The notes below the pieces were generated by a model. It made no database searches. It was not told the DNA's origin and saw only the letters and a list, made by a program, of their open reading frames with translations. The translations under genes and the position numbers were made by a program. A stretch of DNA of 64,000 nt from Runella sp. SP2 (lineage in GTDB: Bacteria; Bacteroidota; Bacteroidia; Cytophagales; Spirosomataceae): assembly GCF_003711225.1 (NCBI RefSeq), contig NZ_CP031030.1, positions 2,294,001-2,358,000 on the forward strand, read 5' to 3'. This document shows positions 9,538 to 42,701 of this stretch, one piece after another; the stretch's first letter is position 1, and each line of letters starts with the position of its first letter.

Positions 9538-11442
9538 TTATTCCACAACCCGAACTCCGACGTACGAGGAGGCATTTCCCGAACAAAATACTTTATGTAC
9601 TGCTTTTTGAAAATCGCTCGCTTCTGCTTTGTAAATATTCAAGAACTTCTGGGGGTTACGGTCAACCAACGGAAACCAGCTACTTTGCACCTGAACCATG
9701 ATTTTATGGCCTTTTTTGAAACGGTGCGCCGCATCTTGCATATCGAACTTTACGTGTTCAATTTTGCCAGGCTTCATCGGTTCTGGAGTGGTAAAGCTAT
9801 TTCTAAACTTAGCGCGCATTACTTCGCCACGCACTAACAATTGAAAACCGCCCATCGCTTTACGGGGATTCTCGGGGCTGTCGTTTGGCGCATCGCCAGG
9901 ATAGACGTCGATTAATTTTACAATAAAATCGGCATCAGTTCCCGTTGTTGATACAAAAAGGTCAGCAAAAACATTACCCGAAATCGTAACGTCCTCCGTT
10001 AACACGTCTGACTCAAACACCAATACATCGGGGCGTTGCGAGGCAAAACGCTGATCTTCGTACATAAAGTCACTACCTCTAATCACCCGAATCTCCGATG
10101 TATAAGGCACAGGCCGCGCTGGGTCGCTGGTGTATTCGTTGTACGCGGGTTCTTTTCCTTTTTGAACACTTTCGGGGGTTGGGTTAAACGAAAGTTTACC
10201 GTCGGGGTGGAAGTACAATTTCTTTTCTACCGAATTTTTGGGCGGCCACTGGTCGTAGGTACGCCATTGGTTAGCACCCGTTTCAAAAATGTATGCCTCG
10301 GGTAATTTAGGATCGGGCGCATCTTTCAAATGGTGATTGAAAAAAGGCAATTCAATGTTTTTTTGGTAAAACTCACTCGTCGCTGAGCCAAAACGAATGT
10401 GCCCCAACGACTCGCCTTTTCCGCGCGCCCAACCTCCGTGAATCCACGGCCCCATCACCAAACGGTTCGACGAGGATGGGCTATTTTTTTCAATACCTTC
10501 GTAGGCTTTCAACGGCCCGTACAAATCCTCTTGGTCAAACCAGCCCCCAACAACCATTACGGCAGGTTTTACATTTTTGAAATGTGGAACAGGCGTGCGC
10601 GACTGCCAAAACTCGTTGTAGGTTTCGTTTTCCATCAACTGATTCCAAATGCGGTTTTCGCCTTTAAAAATCCGCTCGTTAACATTTTTCAATGGCCCCA
10701 ATTTCATGTAAAAGTCATAGCCATCGGGCGTACCATAGGCCGAAAAAGCAGGGCGAGCTTTGGGTGCAGGGACGGGACGTGGCGCACCAAAACCTGAAAT
10801 AAAAGCAAATGTTCCCATCAAAAAGAAAGCGCCGTTGTGATGGCGGTCGTCACCCATAAACCAGTCGGTCACAGGGGCTTGCGGGGAGGCTGCTTTAAGC
10901 GCAGGATGGGACTCAATGGTCGTCATGGTTGAATAATAACCAGGCGACGAGATTCCCCAAGTCCCCACTTTGCCGTTGTTACCTTCAATATTTTTCACCA
11001 ACCATTCAATCGCATCGTAGGCATCGGAGCTTTCGTCGTTGTCGGTTGCGTTTTTCTTATTCGGAATAAAAGGTCGGTAGGCTTCAAAACTGCCTTCCGA
11101 CATGTATTTCCCACGGACATCTTGGTAAACAAAAATATACCCATCGCGCGCAAATAGCATCGACGGCCCTAAGGAAGTTTTGTAGAGTGTATCTCCGTAG
11201 GGTGCGACACTATAAGGAGTCCGATTAAGCATAATCGGGTACTTTTTCCCGCTTGCAATGTCTTTGGGAACATAAATCGACGTAAAAAGTTTAACACCGT
11301 CGCGCATCGGAACCATGCGTTCCATTTTGGTATAATGCTGGCGTATATAGACAGAATCTTCATTGATTTTAGGGGTTTGCGCCATCGATAGCTGCACCAA
11401 ACCAACCAGTAAGAGGGTAAACAAAAACTTCATTTGGGTCAT
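9538..11442 (-). CDS. CocE/NonD-family (S15-like) hydrolase, exported
   Basis: A 634-aa protein with a signal peptide (KFLFTLLLVGLVQLSMAQ). The N-terminal alpha/beta hydrolase domain contains MRDGVKLFTSIYVPKD, YQDVRGKYMSEG and the nucleophile elbow WGISSPGYY. The C-terminal jelly-roll domain (ISGNVFADLFVSTTGTDADF) is typical of X-Pro dipeptidyl-peptidase, cocaine esterase and alpha-amino-acid ester hydrolase relatives. It probably hydrolyses amide or ester bonds of short acylated substrates in the periplasm. ATGs at 11442 and 11433 are both plausible. It is preceded by mnmE on the same strand (32-bp gap). Confidence 0.88.
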   Translation of the reverse strand: MTQMKFLFTLLLVGLVQLSMAQTPKINEDSVYIRQHYTKMERMVPMRDGVKLFTSIYVPKDIASGKKYPIMLNRTPYSVAPYGDTLYKTSLGPSMLFARDGYIFVYQDVRGKYMSEGSFEAYRPFIPNKKNATDNDESSDAYDAIEWLVKNIEGNNGKVGTWGISSPGYYSTMTTIESHPALKAASPQAPVTDWFMGDDRHHNGAFFLMGTFAFISGFGAPRPVPAPKARPAFSAYGTPDGYDFYMKLGPLKNVNERIFKGENRIWNQLMENETYNEFWQSRTPVPHFKNVKPAVMVVGGWFDQEDLYGPLKAYEGIEKNSPSSSNRLVMGPWIHGGWARGKGESLGHIRFGSATSEFYQKNIELPFFNHHLKDAPDPKLPEAYIFETGANQWRTYDQWPPKNSVEKKLYFHPDGKLSFNPTPESVQKGKEPAYNEYTSDPARPVPYTSEIRVIRGSDFMYEDQRFASQRPDVLVFESDVLTEDVTISGNVFADLFVSTTGTDADFIVKLIDVYPGDAPNDSPENPRKAMGGFQLLVRGEVMRAKFRNSFTTPEPMKPGKIEHVKFDMQDAAHRFKKGHKIMVQVQSSWFPLVDRNPQKFLNIYKAEASDFQKAVHKVFCSGNASSYVGVRVVE

Positions 11443-11474
11443 GGATTATAGTGAAGTGTAAAATAGAAAAATTG

Positions 11475-13361
11475 TTACTTTCCAATGCAAAACTTACTGA
11501 AAATATTGGCTAATAAATCATCCGTAGCGATTTGACCCGTGATTTCTCCCAAGTGGTGCAATGCCAAACGAATATCTTGTGCCAAAAAGTCTCCCGTAAT
11601 TCCTATCGCAAGGCCATTCAGAACGTCCGATAGGGCTTGTTGCGTTTTTACCAAGTGTTCATAATGGCGTAAATTGGTCACCACGGTATCGTCAGCGGCT
11701 TTGGCAGCCACTGCCACTGCGACCAATGCTTTTTTAAGGTCTTCGATGCCCGTACCTGTTTTGGCGGAAATGTGGATTTCAACCTCACCCCCTGCCCCTC
11801 TCCTTTCTGGAGAGGGGAGTAATGTTAAGCCCTCTCCAGAAAGGACGGGGCCGTCCAACGGAGGGTTGGGTGAGGTTAACCTTATAATCTCTTCTAAAAC
11901 CGTATCGATTTTATCCAGAACTTGCTCATTCGTAAAACGGAGGGTGGTTATTCCGTAAATTTTATTTAGCTCATCCGTTCTTAACGTATCATACGCCTTT
12001 TGTTCAGGATTTTCGTGAATCCCGCCATCCAGTTCAATAGCTAACCGATGTTCTGCACAATAAAAATCCAACACAAAACCCTCTTGAACAGGATGCTGAC
12101 GCCTAAACTTTAGATTATTTAACTTTCTGTTTCTCAGGATTTCCCACAAAAATTGTTCAGCCTCCGTTTCTCTTTGACGCAAATTTCGTGCATTCTCCAA
12201 GACTTCGGGCGGGATTTTATAGTTCATGGGTTTAAATCCTTCTTCGACGAGAAGTTGAGATTTTGTTTTAACCTCACCCCCTGCCCCTCTCCTTTCTGGA
12301 GAAGGGAGTAATGTTAAGCCCTCTCCAGAAAGGAGAGAGTTGGGTGAGGTTAAATCCGCTTTATTCCTTACCCACAACACTTTTTTTCCCTCCTCTAGCC
12401 CTTCCGCCAACTGCTCCACTTCGGCGTAGGTTTCTGGGCTATCAAACAACAGCACCACCACGTCGGCTTGGTTCATGGCTTTTTTAGAACGCTCAATCCC
12501 AATTGACTCCACCACGTCAACCGTCTCACGAATACCTGCCGTATCAATGATTCGGAATTTGATACCATCTAGGTAAAGGAGATCTTCGATAACGTCGCGG
12601 GTGGTTCCTGCAATCGACGTCACAATGGCTTTTTCTTCGTTCAAAAGCGCGTTCAGCAACGTCGATTTCCCCACATTCGGCGCCCCAATGATGGCCACGG
12701 GAATCCCTTCTTTAAGAGCATTTCCATAATCGAAGGAATCAATGAGGGGTGCGATGGTCGTTTGAAGGTTATTTATCAACGCCCGTAAATCGTCCCGATT
12801 GGCAAATTCAACATCTTCTTCGCCAAAATCCAGCTCCAATTCTACCATGCTGGCAAAATGAATCAGGTCTTCGCGCAGAAATGCCAATTTTTTTGAAAAT
12901 CCACCCCGAAGTTGGTTCAAGGCCGTGCGGTGACTCGCTGCCGAATCGGCAGCAATCAAATCGGCTACAGCCTCAGCCTGCACCAAATCAAACTGCCCAT
13001 TGAGAAACGCGCGTTGCGTAAACTCCCCTGGACGCGCCAACCGTGCGCCATTTTGAACGAGGAGCTTCAAAATTTGGCGAATGATATAATCTGAGCCGTG
13101 GCAAGAGATTTCGACCGTATCTTCTTTGGTAAACGAAGTTGGCGTTTTAAAAACGGCGATTAAAACTTCATCAATGATTTCGTTGCCCGAACGAATGGTT
13201 CCAAAATGAACCGTATGGGAATCAACTTTTGTCAGGTCTTTGCCCTTAAAAAGTTTATTGACGACCGCAAATGTCCCTTCTCCTGACACCCGAATAACGC
13301 CAATGGCTCCTACCCCCGACGGAGTCGCCAAGGCACAAATAGGTTCTTGCTGAAAAACCAT
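11475..13361 (-). CDS. mnmE: tRNA modification GTPase MnmE carrying an in-frame DUF559 endonuclease insertion
   Basis: MnmE with MnmG makes the 5-carboxymethylaminomethyl group on wobble uridine 34 of certain tRNAs. All landmarks are present: N-terminal folate-binding domain (ICALATPSGVGAIGVIRVSG; HGSDYIIRQIL; ARPGEFTQRAFLNGQFDLVQ), P-loop GAPNVGKST (226-234), GTTRD, DTAG (273-276), G4 NKAD (333-336), SAKTG (532-536) and the C-terminal catalytic FCIGK. The protein is 628 aa against a usual 450-460. The excess, residues about 338-527, lies between G4 and G5 and holds a DUF559 domain flanked by two copies of a repeat-encoded peptide ending SPERRGAGGEV. There is no stop or frameshift, so one long protein is predicted. 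The G4-G5 loop is surface-exposed, so GTPase function may survive. The start overlaps the DUF4177 stop (TAATG). Confidence 0.93.
   Translation of the reverse strand: MVFQQEPICALATPSGVGAIGVIRVSGEGTFAVVNKLFKGKDLTKVDSHTVHFGTIRSGNEIIDEVLIAVFKTPTSFTKEDTVEISCHGSDYIIRQILKLLVQNGARLARPGEFTQRAFLNGQFDLVQAEAVADLIAADSAASHRTALNQLRGGFSKKLAFLREDLIHFASMVELELDFGEEDVEFANRDDLRALINNLQTTIAPLIDSFDYGNALKEGIPVAIIGAPNVGKSTLLNALLNEEKAIVTSIAGTTRDVIEDLLYLDGIKFRIIDTAGIRETVDVVESIGIERSKKAMNQADVVVLLFDSPETYAEVEQLAEGLEEGKKVLWVRNKADLTSPNSLLSGEGLTLLPSPERRGAGGEVKTKSQLLVEEGFKPMNYKIPPEVLENARNLRQRETEAEQFLWEILRNRKLNNLKFRRQHPVQEGFVLDFYCAEHRLAIELDGGIHENPEQKAYDTLRTDELNKIYGITTLRFTNEQVLDKIDTVLEEIIRLTSPNPPLDGPVLSGEGLTLLPSPERRGAGGEVEIHISAKTGTGIEDLKKALVAVAVAAKAADDTVVTNLRHYEHLVKTQQALSDVLNGLAIGITGDFLAQDIRLALHHLGEITGQIATDDLLANIFSKFCIGK
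11781..11877. repeat. Palindromic repeat copy A (AACCTCACCC family)
   Basis: A 97-bp element with perfect 10-bp terminal inverted repeats AACCTCACCC and GGGTGAGGTT, and an internal hairpin around CCTCTCCTTTCTGGAGAGG. Read on the minus strand in the mnmE frame it encodes LTSPNPPLDGP...LSGEG...SPERRGAGGEV. It contains 15 bp more than copy B. Confidence 0.85.
12270..12351. repeat. Palindromic repeat copy B (AACCTCACCC family)
   Basis: An 82-bp copy in the same orientation as copy A, with the same 10-bp terminal inverted repeats and the same CTCTCCTTTCTGGAGA core. It encodes LTSPNSLLSGEG...SPERRGAGGEV and forms the junction directly after the G4 motif NKAD of mnmE. Confidence 0.85.
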
Positions 13362-13561
13362 TAGAAAGTTTTTGCACGTTTAAAAATAAAGACAATTTTA
13401 GAAGTCATTCCTTCATAAGCATTCATATCCAAAGAATTTACCAACTCCCATCCTTCGCTTGCCATGCTATTGAGCTTATCTTCAATGTCTTGTGGGTCAA
13501 GTTTTGTTCCCCAAAAACCTCCAGGTTTTACCTCAATTACTTTGTATTCGTAGGTTTGCAT
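13361..13561 (-). CDS. DUF4177 domain-containing small protein
   Basis: A 66-aa cytoplasmic protein with the DUF4177 pattern: YEYKVIEVKPGG at the start, KLNSMASEGWELVNSLD in the middle and a final hydrophobic strand IVFIFKRAK. The function is unknown; such proteins are small alpha/beta domains. Its stop overlaps the mnmE start (TAATG on the minus strand), so the two are translationally coupled and probably co-transcribed. Confidence 0.8.
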   Translation of the reverse strand: MQTYEYKVIEVKPGGFWGTKLDPQDIEDKLNSMASEGWELVNSLDMNAYEGMTSKIVFIFKRAKTF

Positions 13562-41253: not shown

Positions 41254-42498
41254 ATGCAAATCCAAAAAAGCAAACGCCTTGAACATCTACGCTACGATAT
41301 TCGAGGCCCCGTTTACGAAAAAGCGTTAGAGCTTGAAAGCCAAGGGTACAAAATTGTTAATTTGAACATTGGAAACCCCGCCCCTTTTGGTTTTGACGCC
41401 CCCGATGAAATCATTCACGATATCATCCTCAACATTCGTAACGCCCAAGGGTACGTTGACTCTCGGGGATTGTTTGCCGCCCGCAAGGCAGTAATGCACT
41501 ATACTCAGACACAAGGAATCAAAGGGGTCGAAATCAATGACGTTTATATTGGCAACGGCGTAAGTGAGCTTATTGTGATGGCTATGCAAGCGTTACTCAA
41601 CGAGGGTGACGAAATCCTCGTTCCTTCGCCCGACTACCCTCTTTGGACTACTTCAGTTGCCCTCAGTGGTGGAAAACCTGTTCACTATATTTGCGACGAA
41701 CAAAGCGATTGGAATCCCGATTTAGAAGATTTGGAGAGTAAAATCACACCACGTACCAAAGGGATAGTGATGATTAATCCCAACAACCCGACGGGTGCGG
41801 TCTATGAAAAAGAGGTCATTCAGAAAATCGCCGAAATCGCCGAACGCCACCAGCTAATTTTATTTTCTGACGAAATCTACGACAAAATTCTTTACGATGG
41901 GGCCAAACATTACCCCGTGGCAACGATGGTTCACGATACACTTTGTGTCACCTTCGGAGGACTTTCCAAAAACTACCGTGCGGCGGGTTTCCGTGGAGGT
42001 TGGTTGATTTTGAGTGGGGCAAAACACCGTGCCAAATCGTACATCGAAGGCTTGACATTTTTGGCGAGTATGCGTTTATGTGCCAACGTTCCAACACAAT
42101 ACGCCATTCAAACTGCTTTGGGAGGATATCAAAGTATTCAGGACTTGGTGCTTCCGATGGGGCGCCTTCACAAACAGATGAACTTGGTCTATGACCGACT
42201 CATTGCCATTCCTGGCGTAAGCTGTGTAAAGCCCAAGGGGTCTTTGTACGTTTTCCCTAAAATTGACCTGCGTAAGTTTGATTTTGAAAACGACGGGGAC
42301 TTTGTTTTTCAATTACTTTCTGAGCAAAAAGTGCTTGTTGTGGCAGGCACTGGGTTCAATTATATTCACAATGACCACTTCCGAATTGTGTTTTTGCCTA
42401 CTACCGACGAGCTTACGATTGCCATGAATCGGATAGAGCTGATGCTCGGTGAACACCGCATTCATGCTACCAAGTCGGTGGAGGAATACTTGGTTTGA
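41254..42498 (+). CDS. AlaA-like PLP-dependent aminotransferase
   Basis: A 414-aa cytoplasmic fold-type I aminotransferase of the alanine aminotransferase (AlaA) group. Motifs: VNLNIGNPAPFGFDAPDEII, GNGVSELIVMAMQALLNEGD, MINPNNPTGAVYEKEV, FSDEIYDKILYDGAK and the PLP lysine K239 in GGLSKNYRAAGFRGGW. It probably transfers amino groups between alanine or related amino acids and 2-oxoglutarate. The ATG at 41254 (MQIQKSKRLEHLRYDIRGPV) is the start; the open frame to 41098 is a shadow reading of the Asn/Arg-rich tail of the previous gene. A large inverted repeat follows the stop. Confidence 0.92.
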   Translation: MQIQKSKRLEHLRYDIRGPVYEKALELESQGYKIVNLNIGNPAPFGFDAPDEIIHDIILNIRNAQGYVDSRGLFAARKAVMHYTQTQGIKGVEINDVYIGNGVSELIVMAMQALLNEGDEILVPSPDYPLWTTSVALSGGKPVHYICDEQSDWNPDLEDLESKITPRTKGIVMINPNNPTGAVYEKEVIQKIAEIAERHQLILFSDEIYDKILYDGAKHYPVATMVHDTLCVTFGGLSKNYRAAGFRGGWLILSGAKHRAKSYIEGLTFLASMRLCANVPTQYAIQTALGGYQSIQDLVLPMGRLHKQMNLVYDRLIAIPGVSCVKPKGSLYVFPKIDLRKFDFENDGDFVFQLLSEQKVLVVAGTGFNYIHNDHFRIVFLPTTDELTIAMNRIELMLGEHRIHATKSVEEYLV

Positions 42499-42499
42499 C

Positions 42500-42682
42500 A
42501 AAAAAGCGTCTGTTTCAAAAGTCTGATAATACCAATTTATCTTTGTTTTCACCTCATCCCAACCCTTCTCCTTTCTGGAGAAGGGCTTTAAGAAGTCCCC
42601 CTCTACTGAAAGGAGAGGGGGATTTAGGGGGTGAGGTTGATAAATATTGGTAACAAATGACTTTTGAAACAGACGCTTTTTT
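42500..42682. terminator. Giant inverted repeat between convergent genes, terminator-like
   Basis: A perfect 24-bp inverted repeat has arms at 42500-42523 (AAAAAAGCGTCTGTTTCAAA then AGTC) and 42659-42682 (ending TTTTTT). The adjoining bases (ATACCAATTTATC against GATAAATATTGGTA) continue the pairing imperfectly. The 135-bp interior contains a copy of the AACCTCACCC-type repeat. A-runs and T-runs at the ends fit a bidirectional terminator whose loop was enlarged by that repeat. Confidence 0.7.
42550..42638. repeat. Palindromic repeat copy C (AACCTCACCC family)
   Basis: Begins CACCTCATCCCAACCC, holds the same CTTCTCCTTTCTGGAGAAGG hairpin core as the mnmE copies, and ends GGGTGAGGTT. It is intergenic and carries no DUF559 gene, so the repeat exists independently of the nuclease. 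Confidence 0.78.
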
Positions 42683-42701
42683 ATATGGGCAAGCACTATT
42701 T

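Follow-up and report, generated by a model that had tools for sequence, protein, structure and literature searches.

The window, which is the whole stretch of 64,000 nucleotides analyzed here, is part of the genome of Runella sp. SP2 (designated G000; other G numbers refer to further genomes compared). On its minus strand, the mnmE gene (13361..11475) was identified by ORF, Pfam and genome comparison as a single stop-free open frame of 628 codons, coding for 628 aa. Pfam analysis of the encoded protein detected TrmE_N, a G domain (residues 222-334), an MnmE_helical domain split across residues 126-625 and, at residues 388-494, a DUF559 domain (PF04480) with a score of 109.2 bits compared to a curated cut-off of 20.6. 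Alignment with insert-free relatives delimited an in-frame cassette of residues about 338-529 (11775..12350, minus strand), which has the order palindrome, DUF559 nuclease, palindrome and is sited between NKxD and SAK. The distance from NKxD to ISA is 201 aa in the window MnmE vs. 17-29 aa in the insert-free relatives among the 56 MnmE proteins inspected. Thus, ORF and Pfam analyses bore out the preliminary description, made from the sequence alone, of a DUF559 cassette in frame within a 628-codon mnmE that retains the MnmE landmarks, and the alignment confirmed a frame-keeping passenger in the NKxD-SAK loop. A second mnmE was not found in the G000 genome (E≤1e-60). The structure model of full-length MnmE was poor (pLDDT 56) and was left unused.

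The cassette borders were analyzed by sequence, repeat and folding comparison. The upstream palindrome, located 5' in mnmE (12266..12354, minus strand), reads TSPNSLLSGEGLTLLPSPERRGAGGEV, and the downstream palindrome (11777..11880, minus strand) reads TSPNPPLDGPVLSGEGLTLLPSPERRGAGGEV. Each cassette end is here a full palindrome by itself, with AACCTCACCC...GGGTGAGGTT as the ends of both. DNA folding z-scores of the two palindromes were -7.5 and -9.8, with none of 200 shuffles as good, and in-frame translation yields Pro/Gly/Ser-rich peptides. The two repeats at spacings of 489 and 474 that had been noted earlier are real, with 97% identity over 69 nt and 95% identity over 19 nt, respectively. 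These borders belong to a palindromic repeat family that occurs elsewhere in the G000 genome; a solo (nuclease-free) copy lies within the window at 42548..42640 (plus strand), where it is intergenic as judged by sequence and ORFs and matches covariance model R1 (G000:C1:2336548-2336640). Rfam microRNA matches at the palindromes were far under gathering scores and were set aside as a reflection of hairpin shape only.

Evidence for splicing was sought at the domain and RNA levels. No intein/Hint splicing domain was detected by Pfam in the window MnmE (E≤0.01) and no intein domain in the scans of other host proteins (E≤1e-6 or 1e-8), while Rfam (E≤1) revealed no group I or II intron family across window positions 11000-13500. 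An intein or intron identity of the cassette was rejected on this basis, in agreement with the earlier statement that it is not an intein.

The DUF559 (Vsr-like/EDxHD nuclease) domain, which includes D432, E443, D445 and H449, was mapped to 11880..12200 (minus strand) by Pfam, alignment and fold. When 28 in-frame cassettes were aligned, R8, E15, D45, E56, D58, H62 and D71 were among the residues invariant in all 28. The three acidic residues singled out in the preliminary description (D432, E443 and D445) correspond to D45, E56 and D58 of this alignment, and the acidic residues would have a catalytic role. An AF2 model of the window DUF559 (pLDDT 83.6) was compared to known structures by Foldseek and was found to match NGO0050 (3hrl, E 2e-7) and the catalytic domain of I-Bth0305I (3r3p, E 1.4e-4 and 3.1e-4), with Vsr (1vsr) reaching only 0.15. 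The stretch as aligned and modelled starts with M, TTG having been read as a start codon, whereas MnmE has L at this position. Pfam found no DNA-binding region adjoining the catalytic domain in the window cassette; DNA specificity could reside in the DUF559 domain or in the host protein.

We examined the mnmE site in 150 genomes of the family to which the window belongs, 145 of which have mnmE. The full cassette was present in six of the 145, comprising four of the window's genus (G000, G005, G007 and G009, the last being Runella zeae DSM 19591) and one in each of two other genera (G036 and G130), for a total of three genera. Alleles with one palindrome were found in G006 and G012, with MnmE proteins of 461 and 465 aa that are close to the 465-470 aa predicted earlier for a one-repeat product; such alleles could also predate the cassette. 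The mnmE of G001, G004 and G008 retains just a short scar such as CCTCACCCAACGGAGGG...GGGTGAGG, and the first part of MnmE shares 99%, 98% and 96% identity, respectively, with the G000 protein. G094 and G138 have a palindrome-like insert without nuclease, and the loop is clean in G061 and G115, relatives of the carrier G130. Of the 56 MnmE inspected, 13 bear an insert, and each of these keeps the frame. Empty sites exist among relatives. On a tree of the 56 MnmE rows (insert columns left out), the full-cassette state requires six changes, and insert-free loops are interleaved with cassette carriers. Excision by recombination between the cassette ends is plausible.

The mnmE nuclease and its host were found to diverge in step. 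Over 15 carrier pairs, DUF559 identity declines along with that of MnmE, the MnmE/DUF559 values running from 85/78% to 69/43% (Mantel r 0.90, a value reached in 4 of 720 permutations). Among the mnmE cassette pairs, dS was mostly saturated while dN was 0.11-0.56, which indicates long-standing purifying selection on the nuclease. DNA adjoining the site was no more diverged than elsewhere when G000 was compared to G001, and no co-conversion tract was detected in this pair. A mild rise in divergence adjoins the site when G130 is compared to G061 (18-24% vs. 10-18%). Co-conversion was not built on this rise, as more distant bins also reach 23% when the comparison is made to G115. For mnmE alone, old presence with repeated loss accounts for the data as well as homing does.

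The cassette was found not to be special to mnmE but to occur in many hosts and phyla. DUF559 was detected in 69 of the 150 family genomes, and 32 of 82 near-full-length matches sit in stop-to-stop frames of more than 400 aa, with the domain at one end of the frame in four of the 32 (L121, L122, L124 and L125). Hosts assigned by Pfam and NCBIfam on representatives were MnmE, UvrA, IleRS, MetH, methylmalonyl-CoA mutase, a ScoA-ScoB fusion and a PD-(D/E)XK nuclease. One metH gene holds two cassettes, the methylmalonyl-CoA mutase cassette lies between the two domains of the enzyme, and the second DUF559 copy of G000 lies between the ScoA and ScoB parts of a fused gene that is nuclease-free in G001, G004 and G008. 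A wide scan of 84,980 species genomes yielded at least 549 confirmed relatives, the best 80 of which were analyzed. Frames of more than 230 aa surround DUF559 in 29 of these best 80; 28 of the 29 were domain-scanned (the 29th being the R. zeae mnmE), and 26 of the 28 have a domain besides DUF559. Hosts in this set included HsdR, HsdM, a type I specificity domain, a Type ISP enzyme, IleRS (at a second site), MetRS, UvrC, MetH at two sites, riboflavin synthase (RibE), HisF and others, in carriers from Bacteroidota, Cyanobacteria, Planctomycetes, Elusimicrobia, Kiritimatiellae and more; overall, MetH has in-frame cassettes at three sites. In a phylum sample, DUF559 was present in 222 of 395 genomes and at least 47 copies were in frames of more than 400 aa (47 of 150 among the matches listed, which include three LeuRS carriers). 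Further units of repeat, DUF559 and repeat were found in many host genes. Host labels of L107-L109, L114, L116, L125-L127 and L129 were assigned via likeness to scanned relatives plus further checks, the AddB label of L112 and L118 by likeness to L111 by eye, and the HsdR label of L241 likewise by eye; L124, L216, L241 and L306 have no Pfam host domain besides DUF559.

IleRS is essential and was found in 148 of the 150 family genomes, six of the 148 with a cassette. In five of the six carriers a second IleRS was not found (E≤1e-80; four candidates scored per genome), and the fused IleRS presumably works in these five. The sixth carrier (G152) has two contig-end pieces that overlap in part, and a second IleRS copy is possible.

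We next compared the DNA upstream of DUF559 to that downstream, with repeat strength set against 95% of control pairs. Flank repeats exceeded this control in all 25 in-frame loci of the family (26 less L121, an HSDR_N protein with DUF559 at its C-terminal end) and in 22 of 28 other in-frame loci; L210 and L177 were left out as flank was lacking. Free-standing DUF559 loci also had flank repeats above control, in 8 of 12 of the family (those fetched, a subset) and in 29 of 50 elsewhere. The inverted flank match was stronger than the direct one in 20 of the 25 family in-frame loci and in 11 of the 18 non-family loci listed, as in the example AACCCCACCCC-x-CCCCTCCCC...GGGGAGGGG, which is mirrored at the opposite end. 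The direct match was the stronger in L105, L106, L111, L112, L118 and the window's mnmE (direct 63, inverted 22). The borders, described at the outset as two repeat copies, are members of a palindromic repeat family, and in most family loci the two flanks match better in inverted orientation. A common unit is thus an end, a nuclease and a mirrored end. A simple hairpin at each end was rejected as a general rule, the palindrome control being passed by only 4 of 25 upstream and 6 of 25 downstream windows of the family in-frame set. Hairpin and shared-flank measures were computed together and the weight placed on shared-flank repeats was chosen post hoc.

Solo palindromes were found to be dispersed, with R1 matches in 12 of 13 genomes of the genus. 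R1 was built from the mnmE palindromes, both strands were counted and 150 candidates were scored per genome. Genomes with an in-frame cassette had 26 (G000), 16 (G001), 37 (G004), 37 (G005), 34 (G007) and 33 (G009) matches, compared to 11, 7, 3, 2, 1, 1 and 0 for those without, such that every cassette-bearing genome exceeds every cassette-free one in a comparison that is post hoc and among related species. Of 20 solo palindromes fetched, 12 have no frame of more than 200 aa across them and eight do; seven of these eight (7 of 20 overall) are in frame in genes recognizable by a Pfam domain. Hosts included the HisF gene of G000, a C39-peptidase ABC transporter, a class III aminotransferase, an AcrB-type transporter, a histidine kinase and an FG-GAP/ASPIC protein with the palindrome at the same place in G007 and G004. 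No clean target-site duplication was defined from the flanks of uvrA, scoAB and mnmE. RAYT was considered as the mobilizer and rejected, as G000 has one weak Y1_Tnp match and none of four end motifs lies within that locus.

The relation of DUF559 lineage to host was examined by tree. On a 47-row DUF559 tree (free-standing DUF559 counted as one group too), host groups need nine changes, which is the minimum, compared to a shuffled mean of 29.1. MnmE (6/6, support 98/92), IleRS (6/6, 91/88), AddB-like (3/3) and ScoAB (4/4) copies group by host, UvrA needs two changes, and support for MetH is weak (47/78). On a 125-row tree of many phyla (L121, L216 and L170, the last from the same strain as G009, omitted), 23 groups need 22 changes, again the minimum, compared to 46.9 when shuffled; this count covers 58 grouped rows and leaves 67 ungrouped rows uncounted. 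The tree includes a 32-member clade (SH-aLRT 95) with 31 members in frame in metabolic, tRNA or repair genes, and a 14-member clade with restriction-modification hosts for 10. MnmE, MetH sites 1 and 2, HsdR and HsdM are each not one clade, and 59 of 122 inner branches are open. With 40% identity and positions in different clades, the two DUF559 copies of G000 give no sign of recent hopping between genes. Taken together, DUF559 lineages appear mostly to follow one gene and site, with exceptions.

Signs of movement were detected at metH and uvrA. MetH site 1 was represented by 11 loci (three of the window's family, the rest of another order and other families of the phylum, with two named Flavobacteriaceae), and host and insert identities were moderately correlated (r 0.50, p 0.0002). 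Hosts of G018 and G019 are 93% identical while their inserts are 70% identical; for G019 and G491 (of another order) the values are 62% and 67%, respectively. Measured in 30-codon windows, nucleotide divergence of the G018/G019 metH pair is 0.07-0.14 ahead of the site (13 windows) and climbs to 0.22-0.53 within the insert (six of its seven windows). The five windows that follow the site are at 0.11-0.18, with a diverged stretch of up to 0.63 farther downstream. For uvrA of G001 and G004, dS was 0.12 in the insert vs. 0.50 in the host (108 codons, one pair), and divergence was 2-12% in the insert, 7-20% in the upstream 600 bp and 5-15% in the downstream 600 bp. The metH and uvrA cases suggest replacement and recent transfer, and they point to horizontal turnover. 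Values were nearer for scoAB of G000 and G007, with dS of 0.95 in the insert and 1.39 in the host. The dN/dS of DUF559 was 0.09 (bootstrap 0-0.32) and 0.15 (0.07-0.26) in these two pairs, which places the nuclease under purifying selection. Purifying selection was not clear for the uvrA linkers (omega 0.63, 0.26-1.7), whereas scoAB linker windows, which include host sequence, were purifying (omega 0.06).

These results are best accounted for, with a probability of about 0.55 by our estimate, by a small selfish homing-like element in which a DUF559 nuclease lies between palindromic, mostly mirrored ends and is inserted in frame at a permissive loop. Mobility of the cassette is deduced from comparison of sequences, and homing-like spread appears to be the best-supported mechanism. 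The nuclease would be produced within the host protein, from which it might also be freed, and would nick or cut cassette-free alleles at its own site, after which recombination repair would copy the cassette into the cut allele. The repeat ends would serve as homology arms in DNA and, when translated, as flexible Pro/Gly linkers, such that no splicing would be needed. Recombination between the ends would remove the nuclease and leave an in-frame palindrome that then decays. A homing-like element of this type is favored by the patchy distribution at the same sites, the grouping of DUF559 trees by host, the discordance at metH and uvrA, the dN/dS values, the invariant residues, the fold and the flank repeats. 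Against it are the co-divergence of the mnmE nuclease with its host and the absence of a co-conversion tract between G000 and G001 (both of which fit inheritance and loss), the failure to detect a DNA-recognition region beyond the catalytic domain or to define a target site or target-site duplication, the derivation of the low uvrA insert dS from 108 codons of one pair, the scoAB insert and host dS values that are nearer than those of uvrA, the several host groups that are not single clades, and the extension of flank repeats to free-standing DUF559 loci. The homing passenger proposed in the preliminary description finds support for its horizontal part at metH and uvrA; the mnmE data alone fit vertical descent.

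Other explanations were weighed against the same data. The dispersed palindromes could instead mark a minimal transposon, in which mirrored ends and a DUF559 nuclease mobilize the element itself as well as nuclease-free palindromes (MITE-like) and only in-frame insertions survive in genes. The predominance of inverted flanks in the family (20 of 25), the spread of solo palindromes through the genus with 7 of 20 in frame in recognizable genes, the higher R1 counts in every genome with an in-frame cassette and the scarcity of an alternative mobilizer (one weak Y1 transposase in G000) all agree with transposition. We nevertheless consider it unlikely, though the strongest rival, as no recent hopping was seen in G000, DUF559 lineages mostly follow one site, no target duplication was defined, and the R1 counts were compared post hoc, include both strands, come from only 150 scored candidates per genome and depend on a model derived from the mnmE palindromes. 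Less probable still is an old domain insertion, useful to the host or not, that has been inherited vertically with many losses and is not mobile today. The joint fall of MnmE and DUF559 identities over 15 pairs and the unraised divergence adjoining the mnmE site of G000 vs. G001 are as expected of such an insertion, but it leaves unexplained the G018/G019 metH pair, the low insert dS of uvrA, the insert-free loops interleaved with carriers, and the presence of the same nuclease and repeat ends in many unrelated hosts.

The strong hairpins at the cassette borders would be compatible with a bypass of the palindromes or the whole cassette in translation, or its removal by RNA or protein splicing, to give a normal host protein. 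This we regard as very improbable: skipping does not demand that the frame be kept, as it is in all 13 insert-bearing MnmE alleles, and the Pfam scans and Rfam search of the window locus revealed no intein domain or intron family. An assembly or sequencing artefact, including the joining of separate genes envisaged at the start, has a negligible chance of being correct, as the same insert is at the same place in five further genomes (six in all, including Runella zeae DSM 19591) and purifying selection acts on the DUF559 codons of both pairs tested. No observation in favor of an artefact was found.

The homing-like element may extend to a class of mobile element present in several phyla, a generalization to which we give slightly less than even odds. 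Its members would be in-frame, non-splicing homing cassettes, each a Vsr-like nuclease flanked by mirrored palindromic ends, at fixed sites of core genes that copy themselves into empty alleles and are tolerated in the fused protein, with the dispersed palindromes, some of them likewise in frame within genes, as relics or by-products. Hosts named for this class are aminoacyl-tRNA synthetases, MetH, UvrA, MnmE and restriction-modification subunits.

In most descriptions, a homing nuclease invades conserved coding sequence as part of a self-splicing intron or intein. The nuclease element described here instead keeps the frame of the genes that it occupies in several phyla, ileS and mnmE among them, and for these genes mostly no second copy was found. 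If the element moves, it would provide another route for selfish DNA to persist in important genes and would offer an origin for palindromes dispersed through bacterial genomes. The tolerance of proteins to insertion could then also be studied in natural experiments, as alleles with the insert, without it or scarred by it occur in proteins up to 99% identical. For annotation, apparent DUF559 fusions in IleRS, MetH, UvrA or HsdR would be inserts.

The cassette shares with inteins and intron-encoded homing endonucleases (EDxHD, I-Bth0305I) a nuclease gene in conserved genes, fixed sites, a patchy distribution and lineages that follow the site, and the predicted DUF559 fold is close to the catalytic domain of I-Bth0305I of the EDxHD family. 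Unlike inteins and introns, no splicing element was found with the cassette by the Pfam and Rfam scans, and it stays in frame and, as predicted from the gene, in the protein; by contrast to characterized EDxHD homing enzymes, no extended DNA-binding region was detected in it by Pfam beyond the catalytic domain of ~107 aa. Intron-free homing endonuclease genes also occur inside protein genes of organelles or phages and, like the cassette, sit in a host coding region with no splicing element; they are not known to be bordered by dispersed palindromes or to be spread over so many bacterial core genes. A full-text literature search, with most subscription journals and all of bioRxiv outside its range, returned no description of palindrome-ended DUF559 inserts within genes. 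VsrA of Caulobacter, a DUF559-family protein with a proposed role in mismatch repair, is of the same domain family as the cassette and is not described as an insert within other genes in the excerpted text of that source (PMC12907096). Rickettsia palindromic elements (RPE), as outlined in portions of PMC10969869 and PMC3733652, are palindromic repeats of about 150 bp that lie in frame in unrelated protein genes; the solo palindromes, the G006 and G012 mnmE alleles and the G094 and G138 inserts are likewise in frame in genes, but a nuclease gene can sit between the palindromic ends here, whereas RPE are described in those portions without one. REP/RAYT (REPtrons), TIRYT and MITEs, as presented in part of PMC3733652, have a small DNA-processing enzyme gene between palindromic or inverted repeats that also occur alone; by contrast to these systems, the enzyme of the cassette is DUF559 rather than an HUH tyrosine transposase, and many of its insertions are in frame within genes.

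At the ends of the mnmE cassette, two other genomes of the same family were found to carry variant arrangements. In the mnmE gene of genome G005 (locus L007), multiple tandem palindromes were present at the downstream end of the cassette and lengthen the in-frame linker, giving an MnmE of 675 aa. In mnmE of genome G130 (L119), a host-like stretch, CAGCGGCGGCC, was detected ahead of each of the two palindromes. Because this stretch precedes both palindromes, the sequence suggests that the second end was copied together with neighbouring host DNA.

Gene starts are occupied by the DUF559 element as well, since HisF of three Pedobacter species (L226, L227 and L228) has an N-terminal DUF559 domain with a PPLGGGG-like linker. 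A single MetH gene (L106) carried two DUF559 cassettes of different DUF559 lineages at two sites. The hosts of one DUF559 clade were mostly restriction-modification genes, and in this clade a YRGG-x-FSGL-like stretch was often found immediately N-terminal of DUF559. One Elusimicrobia genome had an in-frame DUF559 cassette in both its HsdR and HsdM genes (L202 and L204). Locus L121 of genome G138 encoded an HSDR_N domain followed by a C-terminal DUF559, and the roughly 1 kb downstream of it contained two additional partial matches to DUF559.

Of the 20 nuclease-free copies of the palindrome (solo palindromes) inspected, 7 lay in frame within recognisable genes. A hisF-like gene of Runella sp. 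SP2 contained one such in-frame copy (L280, G000:C1:6542992-6543077). In the window, the solo palindrome at 42548-42640 (+) was enclosed by a longer inverted repeat (AAAGCGTCTGTTTCAAAAGTC...GACTTTTGAAACAGACGCTTT, 42480-42696), which lies between an aminotransferase-like gene and a response-regulator-like gene.
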